From assembly GCA_030762175.1 (NCBI GenBank), contig CM060835.1, positions 87,230,001 through 87,294,000 of the forward strand: a stretch of DNA of 64,000 nt. Reading direction: 5' to 3'. The position numbers and the translations under genes are program-made. The notes below the pieces were generated by a model. The model did not search any database, had not been told where the DNA came from, and was given only the letters and a program-made list of their open reading frames with translations. This DNA comes from Metallyticus violacea. Taxonomy: Eukaryota > Arthropoda > Insecta > Mantodea > Metallyticidae. Shown here in pieces: positions 6,166 to 32,800 of this stretch (position 1 is its first letter; every line of letters begins with the position of its first letter).

Positions 6166-6405
6166 ATGAAAATATAAACTTTTAATATAAACAATCTAAT
6201 AAAATTTACTCACACTAACTTCATTCACTTACATAACGCAATAGAACTTTCCACTTGGGAAAAAATTTTCATTATAAAAACAAGGAAAACTTACTTAAAC
6301 GTAAAATTGGAACTTAACACAGTGAAGCCAATCATATTAATGGATATCATTGTATGATTAGTTGAACTACACACTCTTAAAGCTTCACTTACTTTTCATA
6401 AATGT

Positions 6406-6450
6406 ATGGAACCGGTTTCGAGAACATTTTGTTCCCATATTCAGCCATGC
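6406..6450 (-). ncRNA. Hammerhead-like motif, left arm of fold-back copy 1 (core damaged)
   Basis: Minus strand: CATGG-CTGAATA, stem II GGGAAC-AAAAT-GTTCTC, GAAAC, CGGTT, CCAT. Helix I pairs ATGG with CCAT. The core has T instead of G at the eighth position (CTGAATA rather than CTGANGA), so it is probably inactive. Confidence 0.45.
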
Positions 6451-6492
6451 TAAGGTTCAACTAAACCTTAGCATTCATTGAGTTGAACCTTT

Positions 6493-6537
6493 GCATGGCT
6501 GAATATGGGAACAAAATGTTCTCGAAACCGGTTCCAT
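6493..6537 (+). ncRNA. Hammerhead-like motif, right arm of fold-back copy 1 (core damaged)
   Basis: Identical to the left-arm motif but on the plus strand, with the same G-to-T core change. A shared lesion in both arms implies the arms were made from one another. Confidence 0.45.
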
Positions 6538-6830
6538 ACATTTATGAAAAGTAAGTGAAGCTTTAAGAGTGTGTAGTTCAACTAATCATACAATGATATC
6601 CATTAAGGAAAACTTAATGAATTTCAATTTCCTTCCAATGGACAAACTCAGCAAGTTCCTAATAGAACTAACAGATGCCACCACAAGAACATCAAGAGAC
6701 CCCAACTACGATTTCTAACACAGTTGGACTATAGGCTGAAGATGAGGGGGGGATCACTTCCATAACATATGTCCAGTTTTTATGTAAGTGAATGGAGTTA
6801 GTGTGAACAAATTTTATTACATTGTTTATA

Positions 6831-6865
6831 TATATACCACTCCATTGTCAACAGCTTCGTAAGTA
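6831..6865 (-). repeat. Copy of the 43-bp conserved repeat (minus)
   Basis: Minus strand TACTTACGAAGCTGTTGACA continuing to ATGGAGTGGTATATA. It matches the plus-strand copies at 34881-34923 and 51460-51502 almost perfectly although the surroundings differ. It abuts the outer inverted repeat. Confidence 0.6.
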
Positions 6866-7075
6866 TGTTTAATTGAGAATAAACTTTTAAGTTTGTCACA
6901 TCTTCCCCAGAACAGAATATTCCCCAATGGAACACAATGAATTATCCAGCAGTCTACAGCTGAGGATGCTGACAATGGCCTGCGAAACATGTTCCAAATA
7001 TAAACAAGTGGAGTCAATAAGAGTGTAGTTAGGCTCAATCATACTATAACATTAATTATATAAGTTGTTTCACTG
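6866..7075 (+). mobile_element. PLE terminal region with hammerhead-like core
   Basis: Reads CTACAGCTGAGGATGC, then GCGAAACATGTTCC, AACAAGTGGAGTCAATAAGAG, TCAATCATACTATAAC and TTTCACTGTACAAG. This is the order of blocks seen at the ends of the PLEs at 42.3, 45.9 and (reversed) 5.6 kb. No coding sequence is attached. Confidence 0.6.
6955..6998 (+). ncRNA. Hammerhead ribozyme-like core in PLE end
   Basis: CTGAGGA, a weaker stem II (GC-G against C-GC with a mismatch), then GAAAC and ATGTT. All invariant core residues are present. Helix I pairing (CAG with CCA) is poor. Confidence 0.45.
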
Positions 7076-7099
7076 TACAAGATCAATTAGCATTTACAA

Positions 7100-8290
7100 T
7101 AATTTTTTTTAAGAAAGGAAGTAAAATGAGCAAATGTGAGAGATGGAATGAATGAATATAAAGTGGTAGATGATTATATCTATTTCGGAATTCAAATTCA
7201 AAACAAGGAGGCAAATTGGAGAAACAAAAGGAACTAGTGTTGGCAAAAGGAAAAGCAACTATGGCAGCTGTAAATGGATGCTTTTTCAAATTGCCTGAGT
7301 TTGAGGTGAAATGGCTGGAAAGGGTGCATGGCACATTAGTATAGATTATGATGTTACATGGTATTGAATTATGGGGATTAAATGATGGGTGGGAAATTTT
7401 GGACTTAGTACATAGGATGTTTTGCAAGAAGGTTTTAGGATTACCAACTGCAGCAATTAATGAAGTTGTTCAAACTGAAATGGGAAGAGTAGCAAGACAA
7501 GGATTAATTATGGAAAGAGCATTTAGTATTGATACAAATGCTGAATCTATATAATGGTAACTTATTAAAACAATGTTTAAAAATCAAGAAATAAGTTTAC
7601 AAAATAAGATTTTGGCAAATGATTTAAAGATTAATTTGGAAAATAATGGTTTTAGAGATGTATGGGGTAGGAGAGAAACCAATATTAAAGGTTTCTGTGG
7701 ATATAAGAAAACGGTATGCAGATACAAAAATTATTTAGTATTGACAGAAAAGAGGTCACTAGAGTTCTGTCTTAATGAAAATAGTTGGGAAAGAGAAAGA
7801 TTATATAGATAATATAAGTAAATAAGAAAGAGAGGGGATGTGTGGTTCAGAATTGGAGTGTGGAGGTTAAAGAGGCAAAAAAAATTGGATATATGCAAGG
7901 TGAATGTCCATTATTTAGGGAAAGGGAAAATGCAGAACATAATAGTGTTTATAAAGAAACTGAGATATGAATAGAAAATTTAGGTAAAAAAAAATGGCTT
8001 ATAATGAACAGAACAATTGCTTTAAAGCATATTTTTAACAAAAATTGCATGAATATGGGCCAATACTTATTCAGAGTTAAAAACAAATGTAAATGGACAG
8101 TAAAAGAGAAAATAATAATTAGATATTTAAATATGTAGGTGTGCACATACATGTATACAGGAAACTGATTAAGGGTATAATAATAGTACAATACATGTAG
8201 AAAGAAATACCAGATGGCTAACTGCAAAATGGCTAGGACCAATTTCAGTGGGCAGTTTAACATCTTGTAATTACTTGGTACTCAAATAGT
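7100..8290 (+). mobile_element. LINE 3' fragment: RT thumb to zinc knuckle
   Basis: Pieces in shifted frames: LAKGKATMAAVNGCFFKLPE, MLHGIELWGLNDGWEILDLVHRMFCKKVLGLP, MFKNQEISLQNK, NENSWERERLYR, MQGECPLFRE, and WLIMNRTIALKHIF with MGQYLFRVKNK. The stretch from the AVNGCFFKLP helix to FC-K-VLGLP is the RT thumb region also found at 61.6-61.85 kb. CPLFREREN is a damaged zinc knuckle. Several stops make it dead. It belongs to the same family as the fragments at 1, 47.6 and 61 kb. Confidence 0.65.
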
Positions 8291-8349
8291 ATTGGGTCTA
8301 AGAAGGTTGGTTAAAAGGATGGGAAAATTTAATTTGGTATTTTATTATT

Positions 8350-8430
8350 GGTCTGTGATTCGAACAGAGCCTTATCCCCTGGATATTCCAATAGGTAGCT
8401 GCTGATGAACTGGGGACTAGTTCTAAGACA
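8350..8430 (+). repeat. LINE 3'-tail motif, copy 1
   Basis: CCTGGATATTCCAATAGGTA and GCTGCTGATGAACTGGGGAC. The same words occur at 8776-8840 and, reversed, at 27905-27985. The position just after a LINE fragment suggests a 3'-UTR element of a LINE or a related SINE. Confidence 0.45.
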
Positions 8431-8769
8431 AATAAGATGGAAAATTTTAAATTTTGTATTTAAATTATGTAGAATTTAATGAAGTAGTAAAGAATTTATC
8501 GTAACAGACAAATTGTATTTGTCGGGGTCACTTCTAAGAATGGTCAAAGCCAAATGGGTGAAAACCTCTTGTATTTATTTTTACACTTTGCATTTCAATG
8601 AAAAATCATTGAACACTGATATATCGCCATTATATGTACAATCTGAGTGTTAAATATAATAGGGTAAAAAGAAATGCAACTCCGTAATATGCTTGATTAA
8701 TTTATTATTAGTGTCTAGTTTTTTATTATATTGTGATTTATGTTATTTGAAAAAAGGTGTTGAACATAG

Positions 8770-8845
8770 AAGGGAATGAGCTCAAAGTCTTCTGGATATT
8801 CTAATAGGAAGCTACTGATAAACTGAAAACTGGGGCTCAGTCATT
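8770..8845 (+). repeat. LINE 3'-tail motif, copy 2
   Basis: A more diverged copy: TCTGGATATTCTAATAGGAA, then GCTACTGATAAACTG and ACTGGGGCTCAG. It lies about 420 bases after copy 1 in the same orientation, which suggests a tandem arrangement of LINE tails. Confidence 0.4.
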
Positions 8846-8979
8846 ATTGTTTAAATATAGTTATGGAATTGGTGATAAAAATTTGTACCTTAATTATTAG
8901 TATATATTCTGTATTTGAATGGTTTAAATAAATTAATTCATGTTAAGTAATTTATAGAAAAGAATATTAATGCAAAGAA

Positions 8980-10640
8980 AAGCATTATAACTCTAGATGT
9001 CAAATAAGCATTTTATGCAGATTGGTGGGCCAGCATTCTAAAATCTCTTCAAAGACTCTAAATGTCCAGGAACCCATTATAATTTGTTCATCAGTTATTT
9101 CAGTCAAAAAACTGCATTCATGTCCATGAGCAAGATCAAAATTGAAAGAAATGTGTCAGCAAGGGATATCCCCAGGGATCAAGTTATGGACTAGGCTTCT
9201 GGAACATGAATTGAACTACCCATTAACAAAATTGACAAAGTCAGTAGCATTTGCAAATAACTTAATCTTAATAATACAAGGCAGCACCACATCAAAAGCA
9301 CAGAATCATGCTAATAACAAAATGCAACTTAATGAACAGAAGTATAAAGCAATGCTAGTTACCAGAAAGAGATCTGAAAATAGGGACAGGATACAAATAT
9401 ATCTAAATAACAAAGAACTGCAGCCAGTCAATCATTTAAAATATCTCTGCCTATTGCTAGACAGGAAATTCTCATTTAACAAGCATATAGAACATGTTAC
9501 AGACAAATGCACAAAATTAATCCACATTTGTTAATGTCTGCAAAGATTGGTTGGGGGCTTTACCATGAGACCAAGACAACAATCCTCAAAGATGCAATTT
9601 TATTACTTCTATTGAACCACCAATTCGATCAATGAACTGCAAAAGAAAGTTAGCAATAGGACATACAAAAGAATGCAAAGATAGGTTTTATACCATATCC
9701 TATGATATGCATTGTACTGTTAGATGGGACAATCCCCGATAATTTGAAAAATCCACAAGGTGGCAGAATTATATAACATAAACAGGACTGGAAAATTTGA
9801 AGATAATTTAACAGATGAGTATGAACAAGAAATGACCACATCCAGCAGATGTCATATATATCAGACAAATAACTGAAATTGGGAAGCATGATCTGATAAT
9901 ATAATCAGATAGCAGTAAAAGAATAGGGATATATGCAGATCATGAGCCAACAGAACTAAAACACAGACTGGATGGAAGATACAGTAATAACCAAGCAGAA
10001 CAATGGTAATTATCAAGGCATTACATCTAATTATGAATCAAAAGGATGAAAAACGATGGCAGCTATATACATGCAATAATTGAAGAACCACAACAAGCAC
10101 AATTGTATTATAGATGGAATCCAGAAGAAGCCAAGAGATTTGGAGATGATTAGTGGGCAGTAGAATTTAGCTATATGAAAGCTTATGCAGGGATCCACGG
10201 CAAAGAAGCAGCAGAAAAACTAGCTAAGCAGGCAGGTCAAGATATGGAACTCCATCTATTCTTCCACAAGATCCCAATAAGTGAGTATGAACCGTTGTCA
10301 ACAAAAAGAAGGCAGAGAATGGAAAGGGTGTATCACAGGGACAATCATCAAATCACACTACCCAGGAGAAAAACACAGATTTAGAATTAAAACAGCCATC
10401 ACAACATCAAACTTACCTGTTAATAGGGCATGGAAGACTAAGAACTTACTAACATAGATTTAAGATTACAAAAGCCCTACTGTGATACAACCAGGAAAAA
10501 GGGACAGTGGAACATGTGATTTATAATTGTGTATAATTTAGCAAGTAGAGAGATTATTAAATGTAGAATCATAGCCAATAAGTCAAACGTATTTAATTAG
10601 ACAGTTGAGTATTGCATTTTTAACATTTGTCAAAAATGTA
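8980..10640 (+). mobile_element. R1-like LINE remnant with RNase H
   Basis: The open frame 9142-9534 reads MCQQGISPGIKLW (PQGSVSGPKLW box), VAFANNLILIIQG (FADDLILI catalytic box with DD changed to NN), NEQKYKAMLVTRKR and YLNNKELQPVNHLKYLCLLLD, the finger-palm-thumb order of R1-clade LINEs. Further on, NNQAEQ near 9995 and FSYMKAYAGIHGKEAAEKLAKQAG (10160-10240, WVKAHAGI-GNE-AD-LAKEA in live elements) are RNase H motifs. A TVEHVIYNC segment near 10510 is the end of the zinc knuckle. The lost catalytic aspartates and the stops show it is dead. Confidence 0.7.
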
Positions 10641-10667
10641 GAACATACACTATTTATTTTTACAAGG

Positions 10668-11593
10668 TATACAGGGCGTGACAAAAATATTGCGGCAAAC
10701 TATGGGGTTAAGTTCTTCACATACACATACCGAAAAATACAGTCTAAAAACTTAGGTTTGTTAAAATAATAATTAACCTTTCCAGCCAATTGAATAATGT
10801 TAGCTTTAAAACCAATCTGCTGATTACATTTTACCCTACATGGCAATGCATTACCATGAAGACTTGTTTAGATCATTTGTGTACATTCATGGTTAGTCAG
10901 TTTCTTACATTTGAATGGCTAACCATGGCAGAATAGTTATATTGTGAGCAAGTGCAAGATCCTAAACATGAAGATGGTAAGGATACAAAAGCTGTTCATA
11001 GCGTGTCATTCATGCATTATAAGATATACCAAATGCTATGGATTATTATGTCTCAATCCCTTAGGATGAGTTTCTTCCTGGTCAGACATAAGAGTGACTT
11101 GGTCTTCCTTGATTTGCAGTGTGTGGTGCCATGGATCCTTTCTCAGCAACTCGATAAACTCCAGGAAGTTTTATGACTTGGCTGCCTTCGATCTCAGAAT
11201 GTCCTGTCACATAAGCATGCAGCCTTGCATCAATTACTATTGGTGTGACTGTACATAAAAATCTACTGCCTGCTCCTGCTATAGTTGCTGAAATGTAAGA
11301 AACTGACTAACCATGAATGTACACAAATGATAAATGTAAACAAGTCTCCATGATAACATGTCACCATTTAAGGTATAATATATATAAACAAATTGAATTA
11401 TATTGATAACATCACTTGATTGTTAATTATTATTTTAACATGCATAAGTTATTGATTTGTACCTTAAAATGCATTTAATACTATCTTTCAATAGCAACTC
11501 CCAAACTGCATATGTTTATATTGCTTTTTTCTTATTTTGATGTGAGGAACTCGCCTCAAAAGTTTTTTCTGTATTTTTGTTACCACCTGTATA
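10668..11593. mobile_element. Long-TIR DNA transposon flanked by TA
   Basis: The ends read TATACAGGGCGTGACAAAAA at left and, in reverse complement, TATACAGGTGGTAACAAAAA at right, with TA duplicated outside. The similarity continues inward: TTCACAT against CTCACAT, GTTAAAATAATAATTAAC in both, and an inner block GACTTGTTTA...CATTTGTGTACATTCATGG at 10859-10912 inverted at 11291-11350. The arms are thus about 245-300 bases. The TA target and TIRs suggest the Tc1/mariner superfamily, but I recognise no transposase in the roughly 380-base centre. Confidence 0.65.
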
Positions 11594-13853
11594 GGCACAG
11601 ATAAACAGAGTTCATTTAGTTAGAATCAAGATTACAGAAGTTATGATTCTGATGTAATTTAATGAAATTATACATTATTTATTTGCATTTGTAATATTAA
11701 CTTTTATAGAAATAGGTTAATAACCCCAGAAATATTAAAATTACCAAAATAACAAATGAACTGCAACAGAAGAAAACAAGGTCATGTAGAATTGTAAACT
11801 TCATGTGTAATGGAACATCCCAAGCAATAAATTGATTTAATTAAAAAAATAAAATTAAAATATACACACCTACATATGACTTTTATTCCAGGATATGGTA
11901 ATATGATTGGTATTTTTCGTAGTTTTCCTTAGTTGCAAATGCAAGTTTGGTTCCAAGAATATTTAGTCACAGTCAAGAATGAGACAAAATGGCATTTTAA
12001 CCAATAATTTAGGCCATCTGTCTCTGAAAAGAAAAGTGAACTGTGTACTGCAGACACCCATCTACAGTGAGTAGATCAGTAAGAAAGCAAAGTTACAAAA
12101 AATAATTTGTAAGAAAGATAGAAGGCACAAAATAAGTTACAGTTTATGTATACTGGTGATTTAAGGAATTTCTAAGCAAATCCAAGCATTTCTGTAAATT
12201 ATGCAGAACTTCTGTGCAAGCTCTGCAGTCAAAAACACTCACTTTACATGCTGATAGTTTACAGAGGATTAAATTTTCAAAATTATGCAGCTTTACATTA
12301 TTACCTGCAAGACACACTTTAATATTCAGCTTTAATAATAATAATAATAATAATAACAACAACAACAACAACAACAACAATGCACATTTTGTGTGGTATT
12401 TTTTTTGTTGCAGTTTTACATTTTATATACATCTCTAAGAGCAATTATTAATATTTTAATTCTGAATACTTTTTCTATGAATGAATTTATAGTGATATCC
12501 AGGGAATATGATTTCACACAGTTTATGTTTATAGTAAAAAAAAAAATAAATGAAATGAGTGGCTCCTTTTGTGCTTGGTGTATAATCAAACTGCAATATT
12601 GTGTGAATTTTAATGAAGTTATTGGAAGCAGACAGTAAATTAAACCCCATGATCTAACTTATTATTTCAAGTGCATCCATGAAATTAGTACAGAGTATTA
12701 AAAGTTGTATCAAAGAACAGACCTTTTACAAGGAGGTTATTAGTTTTAAATATAAAGCATAAAATGTATGATCTGTTTCACTCTGTTGCCAAAGAAATAA
12801 CAAGTATAAATTCATTTTTATGGAAGTTATTGCACTGTTGAGAAATATATGAATACATTATGCCTTCAAAATAAAAAGTGGAAAGGGCATCACAGTTTAA
12901 CTAAAAAGTATATTTGACTTACTCATCAATATTTTTGGTAAAGCAAATGTTATTCAAGAAAACTATTTTACATAATGTTCAATATATTTACCTCAGTGCA
13001 CAAATATATATTTCCAAGATTGCACTTGATTTTTTTTTTTTTTAAGATACCTATATTTCTATTCAAATTTTAATGCATACATTTTAATCACTGGTTGCTT
13101 CCATTATTTATTTATCACATATAAATTTTTATGTTATTAGTTAGTTTATACATTTGATTATTATTGTAAAATATATTTTATTTATTTCCTTTCTGTGATA
13201 AAACAAAGATGAACACAAAACCATTGGTAATACATTCAAAAGTAACATTTGATATTTTCTGCTCAAATTTTAATTATGTGGTTAAGTCTGCTGTCTTCAG
13301 TAATGTAAAAAAGAATCTTTTTAAAAGAGGGCTTTTTAATTTACTTCTAGTCAATGACTATGCAGTGTATGTGCACAAATGCATGTTAAAAATTTGCTTG
13401 TGAGTGCTGTTCTCATACTTTTTTATAAATGCACGGCATGCATACTGTCGTACATGAACTTTGAAATAATCTGGTTACTCCAATTGTTACCCATTTCCAA
13501 CAATACCACCCCAAAATATAGTTCACAAAACCCCAGGTGATGTCAGTATCCCCACAATGTGCCCTAATATGCAAATAAGAGAGACAATTAGTATATATGG
13601 TTTTCTTTGTAATGCTATGGAAATTAAGTTCTTCCTGCGAGTGCACACTCCTAATGAACCAAAGCACTGCAACAGTATGAATAAGTTCCCTGACATGAGC
13701 AATCTAATGACAGCAAAACTTGAATTTTGTGATTCAATTTTTTATGAGCTTAATATGTAGTATGCAAGTAAGAGAGGTTTATGGTGAAAGTAATCATTGT
13801 CATCAGTACAGCAAGGACTAAACTGATTCAGAAGCACCAATGACAAACACTAT
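11594..13853. other. AT-rich stretch, nothing recognised apart from a microsatellite
   Basis: I see no conserved coding block, RNA gene or terminal repeat here. Open frames in it (for example around 12214-12438 and 13209-13403) have AT-rich composition and no recognisable motif. The only clear structure is the trinucleotide repeat at 12333-12380. Confidence 0.5.
12333..12380. repeat. Compound microsatellite (AAT)n(AAC)n
   Basis: About eight AAT units change into about eight AAC units. It produces artificial poly-N and poly-L open frames on the two strands. Confidence 0.9.
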
Positions 13854-14137
13854 GAGACATTACCATTTTTTAAATAGTGTTTAACATTTTTCTCTACTCA
13901 GACAACACAGGCAGTGGACACTGGTGATACATGAGATGAAATGATAAGTTGGAAAGTAATTTTATTTAGAAAGGAAATGTTCTAGACCAAAGTTTAGGAT
14001 ATCTCCCTGCCATTTCCATTGATAAGAACTTTAAAAAAAAATAAAGAAAAACAACTTAGGGAGGATGGTTCTGGCAGGACTCAAGCCACATATCTCCTGT
14101 TTAAAACTTGGCCATGTGTTGGTTGAGGCATTACCAT
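13854..14137 (-). mobile_element. SINE-A (tRNA-derived) copy, minus strand
   Basis: The body (13867-14124) is a diverged copy of the SINE at 34492-34790, recognised by GTGTTTAACA, CACAGGCAGTGGACACTGGTG and GGAGGATGGTTCTGGCAGGACT. The flanks GAGACATTACCAT (13854-13866) and GAGGCATTACCAT (14125-14137) differ by one base in 13 and are the target-site duplication. The tRNA-like head is at the right-hand end. Confidence 0.8.
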
Positions 14138-15100
14138 GGAATTAGGCTTTCCATCTGCCATCAAGCAAGATTTCTATTGAGAATCAATTTTCAAGTCCAT
14201 TTCACAATATATCAAGTTTATAAATCATTCAAGAGACTATATAGAAGGGGTTTCATCAATGTGCAATTCAATATTATCAGTGTAATTTGTGCACAAATTA
14301 TAAATAAAATCCTTAGCAAAATAGAGAAGGGAATCTTTTTCTGCTAATCATTCCTTATAAAAAGGAAGGAAATATTTTTTTTAATTATTGCTGATCACAG
14401 TTGAAAAATTGCACACTTTACAGTTCAGAGTGTACGTTTGTTAAAGCTGAATGCACTGCAATAATATTACAATGCCTAAAATAGGAAAACCAGAAGAAGG
14501 CATCATGTTTATCCAAGTTCATCTACCATTTTATACAAAAAAAAGTACAGAATATAATTTTTGGTGCTAAGCATCAAAAGCCAACATAGTCAGTGACTTT
14601 TATGCAATAGTTTTAGTGTATTAGGAGAGTTACTAAACTAAATTATAAATTACACAGTTTTCACTTTTATTTATATAAAACAGATGGTTTCCATAAGCCA
14701 GAATTGAAATGTCAGCAAATTTGGTGTGACAAACGCTGTGTAGAATACATTAATTGCAACTTAAAATTGTGTAATTATTTACTTGTGTGTAAACATGTAA
14801 CATGTAAACATTGTGCATGTTTTCATTTTATTTATGACCTAGAAAATTTAAAGAAACTATATGGCAACAGTGATTTTATATCTGTCAAATGTTAAGAAAC
14901 ATCAACTGTTAAATCTGAAACAGAGAAGGGTAAAAATGTTTACATATAGACTTCTAAACAAGAATGTGTTGATATCAGAAAGTCACTAAAAGAAATTCAT
15001 TATGAGGTAATAATTAATACCTTCATCTGTAAATGAACGTAACATCCTCTAGCTGCTACCCATGAAACCTCAACAATGTGAGTGAAAGGAACACTTTTGC
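14138..15100. other. No recognised feature
   Basis: AT-rich sequence. I found no conserved motif on either strand. Short open frames at 14108-14347 and 14704-14895 show no family resemblance. Confidence 0.45.
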
Positions 15101-15109
15101 CATTAATTT

Positions 15110-15960
15110 AGTGTCAAGCAATGTAGCTGGGGAAGAACATTTTTGTGCAATAATTCATTATGATTTTTACATGTGGCTTAAAACAGGAACAGTGCACTCA
15201 AAGATTTACACAGGCTTTAAGGAACTTTGCTTACAACAGTTATAATTTGGTTCACAGAATTTAAGAAGAGCAAAACACCTTTTAAAGACAAAGAGAGAAG
15301 CAGCAGACATTCAACGGCAATCACTGCAGAAAACATCGCTGTTGTAGAGAGGCTGCAAAAAGACCCCATTAACTTATAAGTGTATACAGGCATCCCTTAA
15401 TATTGCATTATGAAGATTTTCAAAAAGTTTATATGATTATTAATTACAAGTTAGGAAAACTCATAAGCTGGATGCCCTATAACCTTGCTGAATGGCAGAA
15501 AGTCACTTGTATGAAAATCAACATAAGAGGGAGGACAATAACTTTCTTGGCAATATCCCTTGAAGATAAAATAAAATTTTACTGCAGAGTGGTACATAAC
15601 GGTTTGTCTTTTGAAGTTTCTATGAGGTGTATGTCAAACAGCCAAAACTAAGAACTATATTAGGTTGCAACATGACAATGTTTCTGCTCACCCTTAACTT
15701 TCTTGTGAAGCTTCCTATCCAATCTCCCTAAAGCCCCGACCTGGCACTCTGGAACTTCTTTCAATTCTCTTCGGTAAAGAACCAACTGCAGAAGATGCTG
15801 TAACAGCTTACAAAGAGGAGCTTAACATTGATGAGAAAAAGCAGTAGTTCCAGTGCTTCTGGCCTGTTCCAAAGGATGCCCACATGTACAGAGGCTAACA
15901 GGAATGCTTTGAAAAGATGTAGTGGTAAGTTTCAAATATTGCTAATATCTGTAAAGAAAA
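15110..15960 (+). pseudogene. mariner transposase remnant
   Basis: The N-terminal part near 15230-15370 reads WFTEFKKSKTPFKDKERSRR, then STAITAENIAVVERL, the helix-turn-helix region of mariner transposases (NWFTEFKRGR-SLEDEPRSGRP in live copies). The C-terminal part from about 15650 reads NYIRLQHDNVSAHP (third-acid region) and LFGKEPTAEDAVTAYKEEL. Stops, frameshifts and a lost central part make it dead. Confidence 0.65.
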
Positions 15961-16355
15961 GGGGCCCCAAAGCACTCAAGGGGATCATTCTCCAGTCATA
16001 ATAGGAAGAGAGCTGCAATGGTAGCAAACAATGATACAGATCCCTACAGCATATGATATGGAATCTCAATGTTATAACTAACAAAGGTTAGAGCATATTT
16101 TTCTAAAAACAACTCTAGTTATACAAAAAACACATGCTCAAAAAACTAGCAGGAGAGAGAAATGAGAACTTTTATTCATAAAACATTTGAATGTTCATTT
16201 GATGTCGCCCTCTACAAGGAAGTACAATAAATTATACAGTCTCATTACAATAAGATTTAAGATGAGTTTTGTAATGCATTACTTCCTTGACAAAATTGCA
16301 TCCAGAAGAAATTTCTTTCGTTAAGCCTCAAGTGCCACAATTAATGATCCAGAAA

Positions 16356-16403
16356 GTCTTATAAGGCACATTTAAATCAGTCTTACAAGGCACATTTAAA
16401 TCT
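16356..16403. repeat. 24-bp tandem duplication
   Basis: Two copies of GTCTTAYAAGGCACATTTAA plus four bases. They differ at two positions. Confidence 0.8.
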
Positions 16404-17362
16404 GCCTTGTAATAACTGTGTTTATGCATAAAACTTAGACAAAACATACAAATCAGCTGTACAAAGATATGATGACTTCAAAATATATATAGGCAATTAA
16501 ATCAGTAAATGGACTTAGTTTAGCATAAATTATTTCCATTGTAAATAATCCATTTTTTAACAAATGGTGTATGAGAAATAATTTAAAAGATAGAAGCAAC
16601 AATGAAGGTCCAAATGAAAATACAACTGCAAAATATACACAATTTCTTCCACCCTAATGGCAACCTCTTTAAACCATTTTACATCTTGATACCTCTGAAA
16701 GAACTTACTTCATGGCAACCAGTAAAAAGGCTATGATTTTTCCTGACATTATAAAAGAAAAATGTGGCTAAGAGAAATCTCAAAACTTAAGACTAAGCAG
16801 GATCTCATGGAATCTCCCTAAGAAACCATCTGACAATGGTACATAAATGCTTTTAAATCAGAAGTTTTCTACCTATGTGGAAAGAGAGTTACAATCGTTC
16901 CTCTGAGAACAAATATCAAAAGATTCACCAGATCCTACTTTATATTCATGTTAAAAATATAATTTTTCTTTAAAGTTCTGACAACAACAATCTAAAGTAC
17001 ATTTTTACACATTCTAGAAGAACAACATGGCTTCATCCTCCAGTATTTTAAAACAAACAGCAATTCTTAGGAAAGGTAACCACAAAGAATTTCCTGAAAA
17101 ACAAACTATAGAGTTACAAGACAGATCACAATAAAAAAAATCTTCCAAAACTATAGAGTCCTTCTTGAGCTTACTATGCTTTGTAAATATATCTAGTCAG
17201 ATGGCAGCAATAGACATATTCATCATGACAGAAGAAAATATCACTCTTCAAAAAGGCATACAAAAATTTAAGAGGGTCAAAATATTATGAACTTATTTAC
17301 TTATTTTAGCCAAAAGACAATGAAATTTGGAAATAGAGATAACCTGGGAAACACGAATTCAC

Positions 17363-17418
17363 AGATTGCAAATAGCACTACAATATCTCTAGATTGCAAA
17401 TAGCACTACAATATCTCT
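17363..17418. repeat. 28-bp perfect tandem duplication
   Basis: The unit beginning AGATTGCAAATAGCACTACA and ending ATATCTCT is repeated exactly at 17363-17390 and 17391-17418. This implies a recent event. Confidence 0.9.
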
Positions 17419-20874: not shown

Positions 20875-23800
20875 CTAAAACAATGAAAGAAAATACTCTA
20901 AGCTTTCATACATGAACATAAAAAGGTTACACAACCACTTTGGATTTTGAATTTTCCAGAATGAAAAACCCATGAGCTTCCCTAACTCAAGATTGGTACA
21001 CAGCACTGAAATCCAAGGGCAATGAACTCTACTCATTCTTTGACATAATATTATTTATTTACAGTAAAATTTCTTTTATCCGACAAATATGGTACAATGC
21101 CATAACTGATTTTGCTGGATAGCTGGAAAATACTTTTACATGCTATGTAAAAAATTCAACACCAAATTTTTTTTTCATGCAGAAATTGGACACTTTTCAT
21201 ATTGATTTTTAAAAATTAAATTTTGAAATATAACATTTTTTTCAGTATTTAACTCGCAATTCATCTGTTAGTTTATAATAAAAACCATACTAAAAGTGCC
21301 GTAATGTACAAATGAGTCAGTATTAGGTGAGACTATTTGTATATTTAACAACTTCACTGTTCCTAACTTCTTTGAAGATTATAATAAAAGTGCTGTATTT
21401 GATGACAATGTTAATTGGTGGCCATATGGCATCGATATCAATGTAGCCATCATTACCAATAGCAATTATGAAGACAAAGGTGTAGCAAGTACTGATTGTT
21501 CCATTAAAAGTGTCCTTCCACTTAGGTAAGATCAATTCACTTGCACTTGCACTTTACAGAATCCATTGTGCAGTAGGAAATTAATTCACTTTAGCTACTA
21601 TCTACAGATGCAGCAGTGTTCAACATTATCACTTTTGCCACTGCAATATGCACAGTGAAGCATGAAGCCATGCCATGTTGACATTTCCACATTTGCTACT
21701 GAAGCCACACTGTCTATATGCTGCTCTATAACACTATTAGAAGACAAAATAAAATTGCATCAAATGACTGCATGTCTAAAACTGCAATCTTTTTTTTTTT
21801 CTTACTGAAAAGAGCCCTTATATTTGGGTGCCAGATACAAGGAATTTTACTGTACTTTGTCTTTTGCTTTTTCTTAAAACAGACATTGGATATCAAATAT
21901 GTTTCAACTTCTATACCCTTAACTACTTATCTTTCTTAATGAACCTAACATAGTATTATCTTGAAAAGTTTGTCTATGGAAGTATAGAAAAATGTGTATG
22001 TAAATTTATATTTCATATTTGATCTTAAAATATGCTTAACTTTAATGGTTTACAAAACCGTATGAACAAAGAGATTTCTAAGGTTTTTTTCAATTTGGAA
22101 GTTTTGGATCTTTGCACATCCTCATTACTGAATTCCCATTTTAAAATTTGACCAGCTCTGAAAATTCAAACAGAAAACTGAATGTTCATATTTCTGAAAT
22201 CTCCATAAAGTATTATTCAAGATGGAAAAAGTGAAGTATTGAAATATATATACAGCCTGACTGCTATAGGGTGTCACTTAAAAGTTCCATGTGAAGTTGA
22301 TCAAGCTGTTTCAATATTTACAGCTGTTTTTTCCTTGCTTTATTCACAGCTAATGAATAAGTATATTACAAACCATCATAATCTAATACTTGTGTCACAA
22401 ATAATAATATTCATATCTCTATCACTCGTTCTTCAGCCTGCACTACAGTTCTTACTGTTATGTATTTATTAGTATCTACTTGTGTACTTTACAGAGATAG
22501 TATGCAATGGCATACTATCTATACTATACTATCTATAGTATACAGAGATAGTATCTACCCAAAACCTCCCTTCCAAAATCTTTATATACATCAGTTAATC
22601 TTTTAAGACAACTTTCAACACAGATATTTGCTTCTCATACTGGCAATAAGGCCATTTATCCAACGCATTCTTTTCATTAAAAAGCATGTTCCAAGGTCAT
22701 GCTCAGCACAACTTATAAAAAATGCCTCATCTCAGTGGAAAAAACTGTGTACTATTTGCCAAACACAAACACTTTTGCATTCACAAAAATGGTCAGTCCT
22801 TCTCACAATCTCCATAACTCTACTATGTAACAAAACTCCTTTCTATAAAAGTTTGTCACTTTGCATTGATTTGTTTTTCTGCAACATTTTTGCTTCCTCA
22901 ATAACCTAACAAACGTTTCCAACTGGTCTCCTAAATGGAGCCATTTGTGGCAATGGAATACAATATCAGAATTTTGATGTTGTTTAATGGCAGCACAGGC
23001 AATATGACAGTAAACAAATGAAACCTAAAGCGAATGTATGACAATAATGCATCCCTTCCATTCTACTCCCTTACATCTGACCATAAAATGCTATTCTCAT
23101 TGGCTTAGAAGTAAACACATGAAATACTGATTTGTTAATAAACATAGTAATCAATAAATTAGAATTGTCAAGTGATTTATAGCAACCACAGCAGATGTTT
23201 TTCAAAGCAACAAATATAATGCACACACATTCTTTTCAAAAATCCAACATGTATTATTTTAAGTGAATAGATACTTGAATTCCAATTCAAGTACTATTGT
23301 ATTTTCTAAGATTATAAACTGGCTTCCAAAAAATTCTACATGCACTGTAAGTCACTAAAAAGTAAAATGCTATGTCATTTTCAAAAATGGCTTCCATTTT
23401 CAGACAGAGAGCATATTAGCACATAAAAGAGTAAAATTAAAATGTGCATTGCAACATAATAAAAAGTAAAAAATTCTAAACAGTAATGTTCCTGAAGCCA
23501 ATTGATTGCATGATGTTCATATTATTCCATTTTCTACATTACCTTAAAGATTTCCTCATGAGCTATCCCATGTGTCAGAAGCTCATAAATTTTCTCTCGT
23601 ACGTCAAAGAGCATTTTAGGAGATTGCTCTGCAACAATCATTTTTGCAGTTTCTCTTAAGAAGGTTTCCCAATCTATTTCTGGAACTTTTTGATCTGGAT
23701 TAAAAGGGTACCTGAAATAAAGTAATTAAATTTTAGTTTTTTTTTAATGTTTGGCTAGAAGTTTACAAGTTAACATTTAAACTCTTTCAATTATTTTAGA

Positions 23801-26800
23801 GAGAAAAATAATGATGAAAAAAGCAATACAAAAATACTAGGTGTGCTGATTTTAAAGAAACCTAAACATAAAGAGCTGATTGCAGAAATGATGACCTGTT
23901 TCAAGCTTTAGACTATCTAGCTAACCAATGTTCAATATACATATGAAGTTATGTTGCTTAAACAGTGTCTGTCAATGTTTGGCAAGACATCATTTAAGCC
24001 AGAACACTAGCTAATTATATTTCATAATCTTGTCCAGGATCTATGTATGGAAAACCATACTATTGGTTGCAATGCCAGCTTCGTGTTGACAGCAGTTGTA
24101 AAGGAACAAATTACTCTTGAGTAATACTTATCTTTATTTACTTCACAATTAATAGAATAAAATCCCTTCTTATTCATATAAACAGCAGTCTTCTGGTAAT
24201 TGGAACAATTTGTATTACTCCGAGGATATTATTTAGAAAAAATAATATAAGTGAATAAAGCAATGAAATGATGATTTGCAGCAAAACGAGCAATAATCTA
24301 TAATAATGAGATTAAACTCAACAGTTAACACTTAACTAAAAAGGATATGAAAAGCATGTTAAATGAAAGAAAGCTCCTGATTGCAGGGAAGTTTATTAGC
24401 TTTCTCCTCAAACTGTTGATTGCAGTCAGGATACAATCTAGTGTGCTGCACACAATCAGTGAGTTCAAATTCACAATTCTTATTCATATGCTGCTGTGTC
24501 ATTTAAAGCATAAAATGCACCATTTGCCAAGAACTGTAACATCAAAAGAAGTACTATGTGATTGGTAAATGACAATCTCTCATCTCATGCTTAAGTAAAT
24601 GTCTGATGTCACGTAACAATATCCTTCCAATTTCTTTTGGAAACAAAAGCTTCTTATAAAACTTGCTTCTCAATATGTGTCAAATGGACCACTGCAATCA
24701 AGCAAAATATGAGGAAGAGAAACTAGTAATAAATATCTGCAGAACTGTCTCCACATAAATACAGTGAATGTGCTCCATTAAACATACCCCACTCTTATAA
24801 CTGTAGTGTTAAGAAGGTTAAAGAGTGTTTATAACTGTTACACATCTGCTTTACATACTGTTTACTATTAAATGCCACATTTGCAATATAGCAGTCTTAT
24901 ATTAATATTGTTCAACATAAAACATTGTCTATAATGTTTCTGCAATTAACAAATTATTTTCTTTTGAAATGGCCAGACCTTGAATACTGAAAAGAGTGTG
25001 ATAGCAAAGCAATAAGGGACAAAAATATTTGCTTTGAAAGTTATCCATTGTTACACTACTAATGTTCTACTTTCATTAAACCTGCCAAGCTTATATTGGA
25101 AATATCACAAATAATCACCATAATTGCAGGGTTTATCTTTAATGGTTCATTCCAATACCATAAAATTATATAAATCTAGAATTATAAATATAGATTAGTA
25201 ATATTAAGGGGAGTTTAGAGAGAATTTTCTGACTCCCCCACTTCAGCCATAGACTTTTTGTGTCACTCCATACCTTTTATAGAAGTTCAGTATTCTTTAT
25301 AAGATCCAGAACCCTAATTCCTATTAGGGGATCATCCATATTTAGATATGGTTGTGACCCAAGAGTTGATATTTCCTACTCTCCCAAGCCTCACATTCTA
25401 GAGTATGAGCTTGGCTATTTCGTGTAATAGATTGCAAAGTCTACAGATGGGCTCTCCCTGAAAGAGTCCCATTTTCTGGGGGATGCTCCCTGAAATGGCA
25501 ATGTCCTGTAATCAATCCCACCACTCATCTTAACTTTTTCCTTCTTAACTTCAGGAGTGTTATAGTGAGTGTGGGATTAAATATAGGTTAATTTTTTTTT
25601 TTTGATTGATTTATTTAAGGACGCTCTTTAACAGCTCAGGTCATCAGCGTCCCATTCAACTCAGGGCGTGAAACGGCCGACAAATTTTGCTCAGAGGCCT
25701 CTCTTTCAGGCTTGAGGGTCTTTTTCGTGCCGCAAATGTACGACACAGGACCCACGGCTTTACTTCCCTTCCCAAGGAAGCCATACTTAGGATTTTTACG
25801 CCCGAAAAAATCCATCGGTCCTGGCCGGGTTCAAATATAGGTTAAATATAGCACATGAAAGAATACAGAAACCATATTATCCTTGATTCTCTGGTGAATC
25901 GATTAGCTTTTTTATATCTTATTTTTCTTAACTAGCACAGTGATACATTTCCTTGTGATCCAAGGTGCGTTTGTAGTTCCATTCAAAGGAACACAGGTTG
26001 CATAGTTGTCAAAAGAAAGAAAAGAAAAATAGGCAGGAAGACTAGAAAAGAGAGTGTGCCAAATTTACTCACAAACAGACTTTGCTTATTAGATCTTCGT
26101 ATGTTTTTGGTCATAAATTTGATTTATTGGTTGAATACTAAGAAAAATTACAACATGCTTTCCACTTGATTCTGACCTAGTCATTTTTCAGGTGACCCAT
26201 TACAGTTTCATTTACAAAAAATTCTAAAACCAAATTATATATATATAAATAATAATTATAACTAATAATCCTAATGAACCTTATGTCATCCCTTCTACTA
26301 TACTACACAAACTCAATTCTTGTCTATAGTTCATCAACAGTTTGCTAATGGAATAACCAGGAGACAAGGATTCAATTCCTCCTCCCCATTCCTAACATTT
26401 TGTCCCAAAGAACTAAGAAATTATAATATCAAATAGCTACTCCAACCTATCACAAATACTATATCTATTTCATTTTGGCTTTCCATAAAAACTTTCTTGT
26501 GCTCCTTGTTTTGTGCTTGTTCAAAACATTTTTTGAGTTCAGTTGCCTTATTTATTTTCCAACAAGTCATTTTTCCACTTATCTGTTCCTTTATTTTAAA
26601 GTACATTTATTTTACGATCATTGTATGATTGAGTTGAACTAACACTCTTTTGCTCCACTTACTCATTTAAATATATAGGACCGGTTTCACGAACCCTTCA
26701 CATTGTCAATTGTCAGCCCATTGTTGGTTGAAGGACAAACCATTATGGTGTGGGAATCTGTAATCTGCTCTGGTGGAGGTAGATGTGATGAACTTAAAGT

Positions 26801-29800
26801 TAATGTTCTCATCACCGAAAGTATCAAAGTTTATTAATCTTTGTATTTGTAAATGTAGATTTTCTCCCATTTGCTAATTCTGTAGGTCCTTGCACTAATT
26901 TTAATTATTTTGTTTTATTCATTATGTCATGGTTTTCTGTCCAGAAAGGAGATACCACTGCTGAATTCTCCAACCGCTTGTATGTCATGTTTCTGAAATG
27001 TTCTTTTAACCGCGTGCGTATTTTTTTCTTAGTTTCTCCAATGTAAATTTTTTCAGATTCTGCACAACTTATTTTATAAAAACCTGCTTTTTTCTCTTGT
27101 GGAATACTGTCATTAACATTATCGACGAGGAGATTTTAACATTTAAATGTGTTTACAGGTGTTAACCTGGTATTAAAATCTTTAAGAATATTCTGAAATT
27201 TTTTATAGGCACACGGTTGTCCTTTACAGTCTTTTTCTTCTTTTTTCCCCTCCTTCTTCTTTGTCCAAAATCTGAATAATATCTGGCAAGCACTTGTAGC
27301 CTGCACTGCGAATAGTTTCAAGTCAAGATCTTCATCATTAAGCATTTGTAGAGAATGCTTGCATTCAATATAGGGCACATATGAAAGCATTTGATCTTGT
27401 TCAAATTTTCAAGCAAGTAAACTGCACATCTTACTAAAGCACTTCATTTTGTTATAATGAACAATTGTAGTAGGTCAAGCCCAGTACAAAATATGATTGG
27501 AGGCCTTTACTAGCATCTTTTTCAGGCAGCAATGAAGTCATTTACCCTCAATATTCCTCCCTGATATGCTCACAAATCTGGCATAGCATTTGTGCTATGC
27601 ATGTAACATGATTGAGATTGACGTACATGATTTTCAGTTGTTGGAATGCTGAAAGCATGTAGCATGCTTGATTACTCATCACAAGCCTGACTTTTCCATG
27701 AAATTGAAATTTATTGATATGCTAAGAACAAATGCAAAAAATACAAATACAAACTACCAGGGGGCCTTACCTATCTGGCCCAAGCCATTTTAGGGTATGC
27801 CCCCTCACAATTGCAAAAAATATAAATACAATAATTAGTTTTACTCTATCTCCTTTATCCAAGTTATAACATAATTGAACAATACAATATTTCCGTCATG
27901 ATTACTTTGGTCTCCAGTCGCCGGTTCATCAGCAGCAGCCTACTGGAATTCCAGGGAACCAGGCTTCGACCAATCCAAGGTCCTAAATAAAATTTTCCAT
28001 TAGTCTACCAATACCATTATTTTGTTAGCTAGCTACAGCCTCTACAAACTAATAATGACTTTATTTCTCAAATGCATACTAAATGCTACATTTCAAATTT
28101 AATAACATTATAACCCATTCCCAACCATAATCACCTTTATCTGCATCCTAATATGATTAAACAAATGTAACCGACTTTTCCATATCGAATGTTCTCTGGG
28201 CGCAGCTTCATGCATGATTTGCTAAATAACTTACTGTGCAGGCATTTGTCTTCTCAAGTTCATACCATCTTAAAGAGCAAGAATTTGCACATTCACCAGA
28301 CAATTGAAACCCCAGCAAACTCAATACAGATTTTTGTAGCTAATTGGTAATTTCATCCAACATGAATCCCATTTCATATTTGCCAACTATCTTTTTTATT
28401 TTTTAAAAAATATTACCATAAATTGGCTCCATTTAATTTTTTCTCAGAATGCTCTCATCCAGTACTGATCTTTGGTACTTTTAAACAAAAGTTTTGAATA
28501 CAGGAAGGTTTATCTTGTAGATTGAAAATTTTGAATTACACCATGGTAAGAGCTGCACTGAAATCAGATGACTGCTGCTTTTAAGTTCATGAAACAGTAA
28601 TTTGCATTGGTTGTGACTTGTGAAGTTCAGTATTGTTCATATGCTTGCTGCATAGGGTAGGTTGGTTGATTGTCTCTTTGATGCTTCTCATCGCTTGCAA
28701 TATTTATCGCAAACCACATACTGAAGAATAAGATACTTTTTTATGACCTGATTCTTGAATTCTTGTTAAAGGACATATGCTTCGCCTTTTTAGCCTCTGG
28801 CATGTTTCTGTTGTGAGCAATGAGTTCCAATACAAAATTGTAAAAGAGTAACACAACCAATTAGAACAACCATAAACCATTCAGTCCAAGGTGAGAATGA
28901 AATTATTTCAATTAAAAGTGAATGTAGGAATCCACACAGTGAAACAGTGAAGAGCCTTGTTGTTTTCTAATTCCATAGTGAATTTAACAGTGCTGTCTTG
29001 TAGATTGAGGTTCTTCCCTTTTTAGATATAAAAATTATAAAAAATGACAATTTACTGGAATTTGGCATATACAGAAAAGATACCCACACAGATAATTATA
29101 TAAAAAAATAACAGCCACAATCCAAAACAACATAAACTAGCCATAATCAACAGCCTCACATTCAGATTAACAAACTTGCCAATAAGCAAGACAGAATACA
29201 AATTGGAGTACCAAAAAATCTTAGATATAGCAGAAAAAAATGGCTACACAATGAATCTTGTCAACAAGAAAATAGAGAAATTCAGAAAGAAAAAAACCAA
29301 ATAAAGGACATCACCACACTAAAAGGAGATCATATATATAACAAAATTCACATTCCACCCATGGGCACACCAAAAATTCCAGAAGATTTTTAGAGAGGCA
29401 AACATCATTTTGGCCCCAGTAAATAAATTCAGTTTAAAAAACCACTTAAACACCAGCACAAAAGACAAAATTCTGCCAGGTAAGCAATCAGGCATTTATG
29501 AAATCGGTTGCAAAAACTGTGACATGAAATACATAGGAAAAACCATACGTTTTAAGGAACACATGAGAAATGTTAAATACAAGCACACAGAAAAATAAGC
29601 AGTGGCAGATCATTTTTGGCAAAAAAATCATGAATTCCAAAAGGAACCAAAACTATTAAAAGCTCTTCAAAAACCCATAGAATTAACAGTATGGGAAAAT
29701 ATATTTATAAACAAAAACAAAGAATTTTTGGTTAACTTTGATCTCCCAAACAACAGTTACCTTATCAATAAGTTCGTTAGAGTCACAGAGCGACATCTTA

Positions 29801-32800
29801 ATACCACACTGGGAAGCGGCCAGTGGGACCAAGCTGAAGATGGAGGCAATCGCCTTTGAAACATGTCCAAGTAAGTGGAACAAAATTAGTGAAATTTGAG
29901 TGATTTTGTAACAATAATTTGTCATATTATAATATATTTCAGTGTGAAATCTTTACATTTCACATTAAACCTTTTAAAAGTTTTAAAAAAGTTATAATGT
30001 GAAACATCAAGAGAGTTTAATATATTGACATGATTTTAGAAGGTTTACTTTTAATTCAACAATGAAATTATTTTCTGCCCTATGAGCCTCCTTTACACAC
30101 TGTGTGTGGATCAAACATTGTGTTCTATCAAATAGAGCATTTAACAAAGTTTATGTTTTCTCTCACAAGGTTTTGCTCCATTATCTCGGGAACTAATGGG
30201 GCTACAATGATGCAAAATATACCATTTTACAGCTCCCATTTTTGTTCTACATATTTTTCATTAAACTCCTATTTTCAAAATAGCTACGTTATATTTTCAT
30301 TGTTCAAATTAGTGAAGTATGTGACTATGTAGTTATATTATAAAATGAAATAAACATAATCAGTATGTGAGAGAAGCATAATTGTGAAATTGCCCATCAT
30401 ATCCCTATCCCTATAAAATGTTTCATGATAAATATATTTATTAAACCTCCTCTGCATTCTGTGAGAAAATTGCTTTGAAAAAACAAATTTGTTTGCAAAT
30501 GAATACAGCACACTTTAAACAATAGAGGCACTTACTGTTTCACTTTACAAGCTTCACAAAGAAGAATCGCTCGCCTGAGATTTCTGTGAGACTGCGATGT
30601 TATTCTTTCAGCAAGTTCTGTTGGCAGAGTTAAACCTTCTTTTCTACACACATTCTGAGAATAAAAACAAACAATGGAATATAATACAATACTAAGTAGC
30701 CTGGAAAAATGTTGTTGACCGAAAAAACATCAAACATACAGTGTATTCAATGTTCATAATTAGCCCAAGGTCTATACTGTACTCAAAGGTTGAATGGTCA
30801 CACATTCTGGTAATACTATTTAGTATTTTGGTTATTTTTTATAATGACAATACAATACTACAATAAACATTTTATTCTATGAGAACTGATATAAACAGTT
30901 ATCACACTAAAATTGTTTTTACAAAGTCCACAAATGTTGAAATGAACTTGATAAGTGTTGATTAAGCTACATATAGTACTACGAAAGAGCTGCAACATAT
31001 TACTTATTATTATAAAATGCACTTATTATAAAATGTACTTATTATTATAAAATGCACTTATAAAATGTCTGATAAGTAGAGGGATTTAAAAAATGGTTTT
31101 ATTTTTTGAAAATTTGTTGAATTAAAATGCAAAATGTGTTTTGTTTTTTTGCTCAAACGCAACTATTGTACTTCTGCAATTGTCACTGTCAGTACCCTCC
31201 TATTATTGACTATATTTGCACCTTCTGAATTTGAACAAGAAAACCCAATTATGCATCTAATGACATATGCTACATACTCCTTGTGAGCTTCAGACAATTC
31301 AGTGTTCATACTATATTACTGCAATACAGTTTGTTAAGTTGATGCTTGACTTCACCCAGAAAATTTGTGTGACACTCTAGGAATTATACTGACTGTACCT
31401 TCTAAATAGAAGTGGTACATTCTTCTGTTTGGTAACAAACTCCATTGCAGAGTTGTTTTTGAAGTATTGCATAGATCAAACGGTACTCCTACAGATTCCA
31501 CAATGTTCTTTACTGGATCGGTATTTTAAATGTTTGTAGTCTCACAAAACTGATTGTAAAGCATGTATAAACTTTGTATTGATGATTGATTTTTTTTTAT
31601 TTGTTTATTTATGGATGCTCTTTAACATCTCAGGTCATCAGCGTCCCAGTATTGATGATGATGATGATGATGACTGAATTCCTCCACAATATAAAAATTG
31701 TGTTTTATAGGTTTTTTTAAACACATTTTTTAAACTTAAAATGTAAATTGGAACTTGCACAGTGAAGCTAATCATATTAATTGATATCATTGTATGATTC
31801 AGTTGAACTACACACTCTTAAAGCTTCATTTACTTTTCATAAATGTATGGAACCGGTTTCGATAACATTTAGTTCCCATCTTCAGCCAGGCTAAAGTTCA
31901 ACTGAGTTGAACTGTAGCCTGGCCACTTAAAAGCTTCATTTACTTTTCATAAATGTTCTCGAAACCAATTTCATACATTTATGAAAAGTAAATGAAGCTT
32001 TAAGAGTGTGTAGTTCAACTGAATCATACAATGATATCAATTAACATTTTTTAAAAATTTTGTGCTTGAAGCGCTTTTAAATGATTTTATTAAACAGGAT
32101 TGCATCTCTATGTGATACATAATTTGTTTTTTGTAGGTCTGTGATACTGTCAGTGAAATGCCCAGCTGATCTAATGTGATGCACATGATAATCTTCGTTA
32201 TTCCTAAAAAGCTGTTAATTATTATGCATAACAGCTAGTTTCTAATATATATATATATATATATATATTGGAAGATAATGATAGAATATTTAATTTCTTA
32301 AAAATTGGTTTACTGGGAGCATGAGATGGTAATTACTGCATTAATATTTTCTTTTGCCATTTAAAAACCATAAATGATGAACTTGTTGCTCCCCAGAAGG
32401 GTATACCATAAGCTAATATAGAACACGAACACAAAATATACTATTATCAATATATCATTAGTACAATTCCTAGTTAATATGCACATTGCATTAGATATTT
32501 CACTTAATTTATTACATAAAGTAAAAATGTGTTCATTCCAAGATAAGTCAAGTGAATTATCACACTTAAAATTTTTGCACTATAATATTTTAATAGGTGT
32601 GTTTTCAATTTCTATGCTATATGAATCATAAAAAAGAGTATGTTTATTAAAATTTATGTAGTTGGTCTTGTCGATATTTAATATTAACTTATTAGATGTT
32701 AACCAATTATTTAAATTTTGCAGAGCATGACTAACATAGATTGCAAAGTAACTTACTTGGGTTTCAAAATATAAAATTGGCATGATCAGAAAACAGAATC

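Follow-up and report, generated by a model that had tools for sequence, protein, structure and literature searches.

Leader hairpins of a Penelope-like element in the genome of Metallyticus violacea, probably made by two-sided target-primed reverse transcription

Two hairpin insertions in AT-rich repeat DNA

We analyzed a 64,000-nucleotide stretch of the genome of the mantis Metallyticus violacea (assembly GCA_030762175.1, contig CM060835.1, positions 87,230,001 to 87,294,000 of the forward strand; hereafter, the window). Located in AT-rich repeat DNA of this window are two short insertions, A (6294-6604) and B (31735-32043), built from inverted copies of the 5' leader of a Penelope-like element (PLE). 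Here we describe these insertions and their relatives in the same genome, and consider how they may have been formed.

A and B have their ends in common and consist of inverted arms, with an unpaired extension on one side only. The arms of A are about 124 nt long and 100% alike across the outer ~112 nt. Those of B are 100% alike across the outer ~72 nt, and the right arm is rearranged further inward by an inverted patch. RNA folding of the + strand gave -216 kcal/mol for A and -164 kcal/mol for B. A preliminary description, made from the sequence alone, had reported two insertions with common ends, each bounded by its own exact 12-bp direct repeat, and both the coordinates and the repeats were confirmed. 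The long hairpin with a one-sided unpaired leader is also as described, although the leader measures 45 nt in A and 43 nt in B and not 44 nt. Coding sequence is absent, as had been stated, in that no open reading frame of at least 150 aa in the window overlaps A or B. The claim that the hairpins carry ribozyme cores fared less well. Core G8 is changed in both arms of A and only the left arm of B keeps CTGAAGA; both insertions fail a relaxed hammerhead scan (described below). The features of the two insertions, in window coordinates, are as follows.

6282-6293, unstranded: target-site duplication of A, left copy, AAGGAAAACTTA, exact 12 bp
6294-6338, minus strand: "tail" of A, 45 nt unpaired, reading outward from the inner to the outer start; its position matches the leader-unit tail
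6339-6462, minus strand: left arm of A, an inverted leader unit ending at GGTTCAACT
6415-6444, minus strand: hammerhead-like stretch in the left arm of A, identified by eye, with core G8 altered (CTGAATA); fails the relaxed scan and is presumably inactive
6463-6480, unstranded: junction filler of A, AAACCTTAGCATTCATTG, unique among the scored copies; 11 nt match the arms
6481-6604, plus strand: right arm of A, a tail-less leader unit that spans AGTTGAACC to the inner start
6499-6528, plus strand: hammerhead-like stretch in the right arm of A, with core G8 altered; fails the relaxed scan
6605-6616, unstranded: target-site duplication of A, right copy, exact 12 bp
31723-31734, unstranded: target-site duplication of B, left copy, ACATTTTTTAAA, exact 12 bp
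31735-31777, minus strand: "tail" of B, 43 nt unpaired
31778-31903, minus strand: left arm of B, ending at AGTTCAACT
31856-31885, minus strand: stretch in the left arm of B with the core string CTGAAGA
31904, unstranded: one base separating the arm ends of B
31905-32043, plus strand: right arm of B, rearranged
31926-31956: patch in the right arm of B, consisting of left-arm sequence in opposite orientation, which displaces the ribozyme stem region
32044-32055, unstranded: target-site duplication of B, right copy, exact 12 bp

A splice-donor-like string (GTAAGT) occurs in the leader at window positions 6551-6556 and at the equivalent place in other arms. The arms are unspliced.

Copies in the host assembly

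We searched the host assembly (2.32 Gb, 310 contigs) with both insertions. Query A gave 788 first-look candidates, the best 40 of which were scored (A included), and query B gave 1541, again with the best 40 scored. These numbers, like the 415 candidates of a further search described below, are unscored first looks and not verified copy numbers. Among the best 40 of the 788 candidates, 39 places other than A itself match A near full length at 93-96% identity. In total, 70 loci (designated by L numbers) were compared. Removal of two repeats left 68, and removal of L030 and L049, which are segmental duplicates with near-identical flanks, left 66 independent copies. In 54 of these 66 copies the ends are directly flanked by an exact direct repeat of 11 bp or more, which in 38 copies is exactly 12 bp long. 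Mispaired flanks, used as a control, show an exact repeat of at least 11 bp in 3 of 4290 cases. One of the 12 copies that fail this test, L002, is a compound insertion in which the duplication sits at the compound's outer ends, as judged by eye. Products of PLEs are expected to have short, somewhat variable target duplications in AT-rich DNA; those found here are mostly 12 bp long, in flanks with about 68% A+T.

Empty sites were also identified. For 59 of the 68 copies the two flanks were joined and searched against all sequence gathered, and in 11 cases the joined flanks aligned unbroken across the site with an uninterrupted paralogue. The nine alignments that were inspected show 81-95% identity to the paralogue, which has a single target copy, and 0-2 gaps close to the site. 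These are A versus L060, two copies within PLE coding sequence versus L080 (the element described below), two copies versus an uninterrupted repeat at window positions 29542-29929 (unstranded; 94% identical to the target of L062 and 82% to that of L025), and four more. Because these paralogous sites are uninterrupted, whole hairpins were inserted in single events.

The preliminary description had proposed a search of this kind, and had named random ends and missing 12-bp repeats as signs of random PLE debris. We found many copies with fixed ends, most of which have an exact duplication, so neither sign is present. However, this result cannot separate a mobile hairpin from a hairpin made anew at each site.

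The source element

A query spanning and extending past the tail of the compound insertion L002 gave 228 candidates, the best 40 of which were scored, and led to tandem arrays. Four matches spaced 2634 bp apart constitute one such array, and one of its units (L080, host C3:63042300-63045300) is an apparently uninterrupted PLE. Its open frame of 823 codons (L080:400-2868, minus strand) matches RVT_1 with 55.3 bits (cut-off 29.6) and GIY-YIG with 22.3 bits, just below the curated cut-off of 22.6. Comparison of the PLE protein with solved structures returned no sequence match. The 169-nt leader unit (from L003) is 97.6% identical within the terminal repeat of L080. Thus, the arms match the 5' leader of a PLE present in the genome, in agreement with the preliminary description, which had derived them from a PLE terminal region. 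We consider A and B to be products of a PLE and not PLEs, as they lack a coding body and with it a reverse transcriptase and endonuclease.

The order within the leader is AGTTGAACC, the hammerhead-like motif, the inner start and the tail, followed by the open frame. Within the array, the leader start at AGTTGAACC overlaps the final codons of the preceding unit's frame. In simple hairpins no sequence precedes AGTTGAACC, and the tail is followed by a few bases at most. In L002, L084 and L085, a spacer beyond the tail corresponds to the start of the PLE open frame.

Short tandem units with periods of 159, 158, 198 and 213 bp were also identified. Five loci (L081, L082, L083, L086 and L088) are short tandem arrays, with a period of about 158-198 bp, of leader pieces from just after the predicted hammerhead cut. 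The short arrays that are seen whole have an inverted arm at one end and a tail at the other.

Centres and arms of the hairpins

The centre could be scored in 66 of the 68 copies, the exceptions being B (L041) and L043, which have rearranged right arms. The scored copies have 64 distinct middles (63 in 64 if L030 and L049 are left out). The arms themselves end uniformly: left arms reach GTTCAACT in 54 of 66 copies and right arms begin at AGTTGAAC in 57 of 66. The fillers between them are 1-27 nt long and are frequently patched from neighbouring arm sequence. For the 56 fillers of at least 8 nt, the match to the adjacent arms is longer than in shuffled sequence in 40 cases at p<=0.05 and in 32 at p<=0.01. 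This pattern looks like joining of the polymerase-theta type, with the enzyme presumed.

Two pairs of copies share a middle. L024 and L030 have identical 300-bp flanks and are thus a segmental duplication. L019 and L032 share an 11-nt filler but have unrelated flanks, and an inserted C, placed alike in both arms, distinguishes the two copies. The occurrence of this difference in both arms implies two different templates, so the common filler arose twice. In the segmental duplicates (L048/L049 and L024/L030), the centre is kept or differs at one base.

Both arms of a copy have the same five-column haplotype in 61 of the 64 copies in which both arms could be aligned, using diagnostic columns chosen after the arm-variant analysis had been seen; the three exceptions differ at one column each. 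This points to one source per copy. In 30 of the 64 copies, the arms show no difference over 117 columns. No tested variable column separates left from right arms, other than slightly more end erosion of the left arms, contrary to what is expected if the hairpins were inherited as units. In L073 and L077 only one side is truncated, with one arm complete and the other beginning at unit position 34 or 18. Extra units are present, in the interior or on one side, in L002, L068, L071 and L081. The compound insertions L002, L068 (the same as L072) and L071 contain three to four leader units in mixed orientation, which suggests template jumps within the same event.

One tail per insertion and a palindromic target

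Since the first queries had included the tail, we ran a tail-less query, which gave 415 candidates, the best 40 of which were scored. In all 40 places (24 previously known copies and 16 new ones, with both ends fetched) the tail is on exactly one end. An optional tail of ~30-45 nt on one end is also what is expected of PLE products. If the start were chosen independently for each complementary DNA (cDNA), at most half of the insertions would be mixed. The 16 new places have duplications of 10-15 bp.

The sequence around the 12-bp duplications (n=38) is palindromic. On the left, A occurs 34 times at -3 and 33 times at -2, and C 28 times at -1; on the right, G occurs 24 times at +1, and T 31 times at +2 and 34 times at +3. 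AAC-N12-GTT is matched at five or more of its six letters by 37 of 72 targets (28 of the 56 examined first and 9 of the 16 from the tail-less search), compared with 4.3% of 20000 random flank pieces. All six are present in 16 of 72 targets and in 0.16% of the random pieces. As the target motif is palindromic, it suggests a symmetric pair of endonucleases that cuts both strands 12 nt apart.

RNA 5' ends

The genomic base that precedes AGTTGAACC in L080 is C. Immediately before the right arm, 36 of 55 hairpins have G (p 7.5e-17 versus filler composition), and immediately after the left arm, 21 of 51 have C (p 8e-5). Four tandem joins (in L002, L084 and L085) likewise have an extra G. Copying of a cap adds an extra G, and the template RNA thus probably had a capped 5' end at AGTTGAACC. 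The string ACAGTT is similar to an arthropod initiator. A different start is seen in L081, L082, L083, L086 and L088, in which the units begin at CCATAC, directly after the predicted hammerhead cut, sometimes with one extra base that is never G. It seems that ribozyme-cut RNA is also used as a template. We have moderate confidence in the prediction of a hammerhead in the leader.

Other features of the window

Remnants of other, more diverged PLEs are present at 43415-44444 (minus strand), with related pieces at 5011-6186, 26617-27204, 42310-42517 and 44505-45986. A 152-bp sequence occurs twice, in adjacent copies that are 99% identical, at 61757-62058. An open frame of 373 aa at 55622-56743 (plus strand) presumably resembles the reverse transcriptase of non-LTR (long terminal repeat) retrotransposons, based on its motifs.

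Mechanism of insertion

We conclude that A and B are likely separate, dead-end insertions, for which the PLE used the 5' leader of its RNA as template in two-sided target-primed reverse transcription. The reaction may have five steps. First, a paired PLE endonuclease would cut both strands of a site similar to AAC-N12-GTT and leave 12-nt 3' overhangs; the motif and the duplication length are observed, and the pairing and the polarity of the overhangs are presumed. Second, both 3' ends would prime within the leader, with one cDNA made from the outer start (thus including the tail) and the other from the inner start ~45 nt upstream, in keeping with the one start of each kind per insertion seen in the sampled copies. 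Third, both cDNAs would run off the 5' end of the RNA, which is AGTTGAACC in the studied hairpins (presumably the capped start) and CCATAC in some other loci. Here the end positions are read from the copies, and the cap and the ribozyme cut are putative. Fourth, the two identical cDNA ends would be joined, usually with nucleotides from nearby arms, in a reaction that may be of the polymerase-theta type; the filler is present in the copies and the enzyme is a candidate. Fifth, gap filling would yield the 12-bp duplication. The element body would be absent because the priming region is just ~170 nt from the 5' end of the RNA.

Several observations weigh against parts of this scheme. The copies are the best 40 of each search, and the set is thus biased to well-preserved hairpins. 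A tree groups the two arms of a copy as sisters in just 11 of 64 cases, and in 33 of 64 the closest match to a left arm, alone or in a tie, is the right arm of its copy; these sequences have too few variable sites and are too similar for the tree and nearest-arm tests to decide. In the shuffle test, 16 of 56 fillers have no significant arm match. G, the genomic alternative at the position that follows the left arm, is over-represented as well (16 of 51, p 0.003), so not all extra bases indicate a cap. The enzyme of Poseidon, a PLE of anole, preferred 5'-ATT-3', and the authors saw no strand difference in the start site in bulk (PMC11167929). For the hammerhead, a strict scan matched 0 of 89 loci and neither the window nor any of 20 shuffled windows, since the local motif carries an additional nucleotide ahead of stem II. 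A relaxed rule that allows one extra nucleotide, set post hoc after the strict scan came out empty, matched 72 of 89 loci and gave one match in 100 shuffled windows; its single site in the window (42619, minus strand) adjoins an older PLE remnant. Rfam reported no hammerhead; what it did list were weak matches or generic hairpins assigned to microRNA families. When the L080 leader was folded as a single sequence, stem II formed but stem I did not (z -1.18).

A variant of the same two-sided reaction, in which the template is not the full PLE mRNA but a short dedicated RNA from deleted tandem leader units (mini-PLE or retrozyme-like), is unlikely. The short tandem units described above could be the source of such an RNA. 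However, in L002, L084 and L085 the spacer that follows the tail is the start of the PLE open frame, so in these cases the RNA continued into the PLE. In addition, by eye the short arrays resemble products of the reaction, as they carry a tail at one end and an inverted arm at the opposite end.

We consider it distinctly improbable that a single cDNA folds back at its near-palindromic GTTCAAC end and copies itself into the second arm. Such self-copying would account for identical arms and for filler derived from the arms, and the rotifer PLE paper infers self-priming from palindromic junctions (PMC3846280). Yet the second arm should then continue through the tail and beyond, and exactly one tail was found in 40 of 40 places. 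Neither the truncation of one side only (L073, L077) nor the extra units (L002, L068, L071, L081) is expected, and the palindromic target with its 12-bp stagger fits two cuts. The one-tail rule, together with the one-sided truncations and extra units, thus indicates two separate cDNAs and not self-priming.

The preliminary description interpreted A and B as members of a non-autonomous fold-back family whose hairpins move whole, presumably with the PLE machinery supplied in trans. Such movement would involve transcription or excision of the entire hairpin. Part of this description is well supported: the set is real, has many copies, fixed termini and its own target duplications, and is linked to PLEs. 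The fixed termini, the target duplications and the many similar full-length copies are indeed what a fold-back family would show, and L019 and L032 have a common filler in unrelated flanks. Movement as a unit is another matter, as a copied hairpin should bring its centre with it, and instead almost every scored copy has a middle of its own. L019 and L032 also differ from each other by an inserted C that is found in both arms, and side-specific variants are absent beyond end erosion. Based on the junctions and the arm variants, we rejected the mobile hairpin as a unit and consider such a family very improbable.

It is scarcely credible that a common centre was present at insertion and was later broken and re-joined in place, even though long palindromes are unstable and the fillers resemble repair joins, given that breakage should erode ends and the arms stop at the same base in most copies, that the segmental duplicates L024/L030 and L048/L049 keep their centre or differ at one base, and that the 30 copies without arm differences look young with only 2 of 66 middles shared.

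Comparison with known systems

Two-sided priming on RNA is known from LINE-1 twin priming, in which two target strands prime on the RNA and the inverted structure is joined with microhomology or filler. Here, by contrast, the two priming events would both fall in the same leader, at separate and defined starts, which results in overlapping arms. Fold-back elements and hairpin MITEs (miniature inverted-repeat transposable elements) have long inverted repeats, no coding sequence, many copies and target duplications. In the hairpins described here the centre is not inherited, the interior having failed to be copied along with the ends, the ends are asymmetric due to the single tail, and the sequence is that of a PLE leader.

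The closest parallels are in other PLEs. In vitro, the enzyme of anole Poseidon cuts and extends both strands, and two internal starts near the junction of the pseudo-long terminal repeat (pLTR) and the open reading frame bound a tail; a dimer model was presented (PMC11167929). Its hammerhead is at the start of the open frame, and unprocessed RNA is the dominant template (PMC11167929). Cutting and extension of both strands, with two starts that bound the tail, are as proposed here (PMC11167929). Poseidon differs in that the data are from bulk reactions in vitro, in which the two starts are not paired within one insertion, and in its 5'-ATT-3' preference versus AAC-N12-GTT here; hairpin products are not described in the portions of the paper covered (PMC11167929).

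The Pen families of the rotifer Adineta vaga have inverted pLTRs, palindromic inverted junctions, a tail of ~31 bp on one pLTR and duplications of 8-10 bp, and non-element DNA between pLTRs is mobilised in trans (PMC3846280). Self-priming on an antisense template was suggested (PMC3846280). PLE terminal repeats in opposite orientation are thus already known, as the preliminary description had stated, and inverted ends with tails are published (PMC3846280). The head-to-head terminal pieces, palindromic junction, one-sided tail and short duplications are shared with the insertions studied here, which differ in being two leader arms only, without a body (PMC3846280). The arm ends, the private templated junctions and the one-tail rule are resolved here over many copies (compare PMC3846280).

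Metazoan retrozymes are similarly short and non-coding, with units of ~150-300 bp that contain type I hammerheads, and are thought to use the machinery of other elements (PMC7761336). However, they are direct tandems, whereas A and B are inverted pairs, have damaged cores and were not seen to be copied further. Direct tandem units bounded by active hammerheads were not found in A and B, although short tandem arrays occur elsewhere in the genome. Thousands of dispersed minimal hammerheads are present in animal genomes, and a review describes their role as unknown (PMC7761336). Leader-hairpin insertions are a possible source of these.

In the literature searched, we found no report of PLE hairpins that consist of the leader only and have private templated junctions, but coverage was incomplete and their absence from print is not established. 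A and B are a minimal version of known PLE insertion anatomy, not a new kind of mobile element.

Implications for Penelope-like elements

Accounts of PLE integration are still incomplete. Self-priming, perhaps with an antisense RNA as template, was inferred in one study from head-to-head repeats (PMC3846280), and in another the steps that follow first priming are left for validation (PMC11167929). With a large set of minimal insertions in which the starts, 5' ends, joins and targets can be read, the insertion reaction becomes countable. Three rules can be tested: the use of one outer and one inner start, a palindromic target with a 12-nt stagger, and closure at the 5' end by end joining with templated filler. 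There are also hints, at the DNA level, that both capped and ribozyme-cut RNAs serve as templates.

More broadly, PLE insertion may be obligatorily two-sided, a proposal whose chances we regard as evenly balanced. In this case, an endonuclease dimer would open a palindromic AAC-N12-GTT site, one outer and one inner start would be used on one RNA or one RNA source, and end joining would occur at the RNA 5' end. Leader hairpins would be the default product, and full-length insertions would form only if one cDNA starts at the downstream repeat of a tandem transcript. If this is true, the obligatory two-sided scheme alone would explain why PLEs have inverted repeats, palindromic junctions, partial tandems and a tail on one side only, and the minimal hammerheads dispersed through animal genomes would in many cases be scars of the two-sided PLE reaction.

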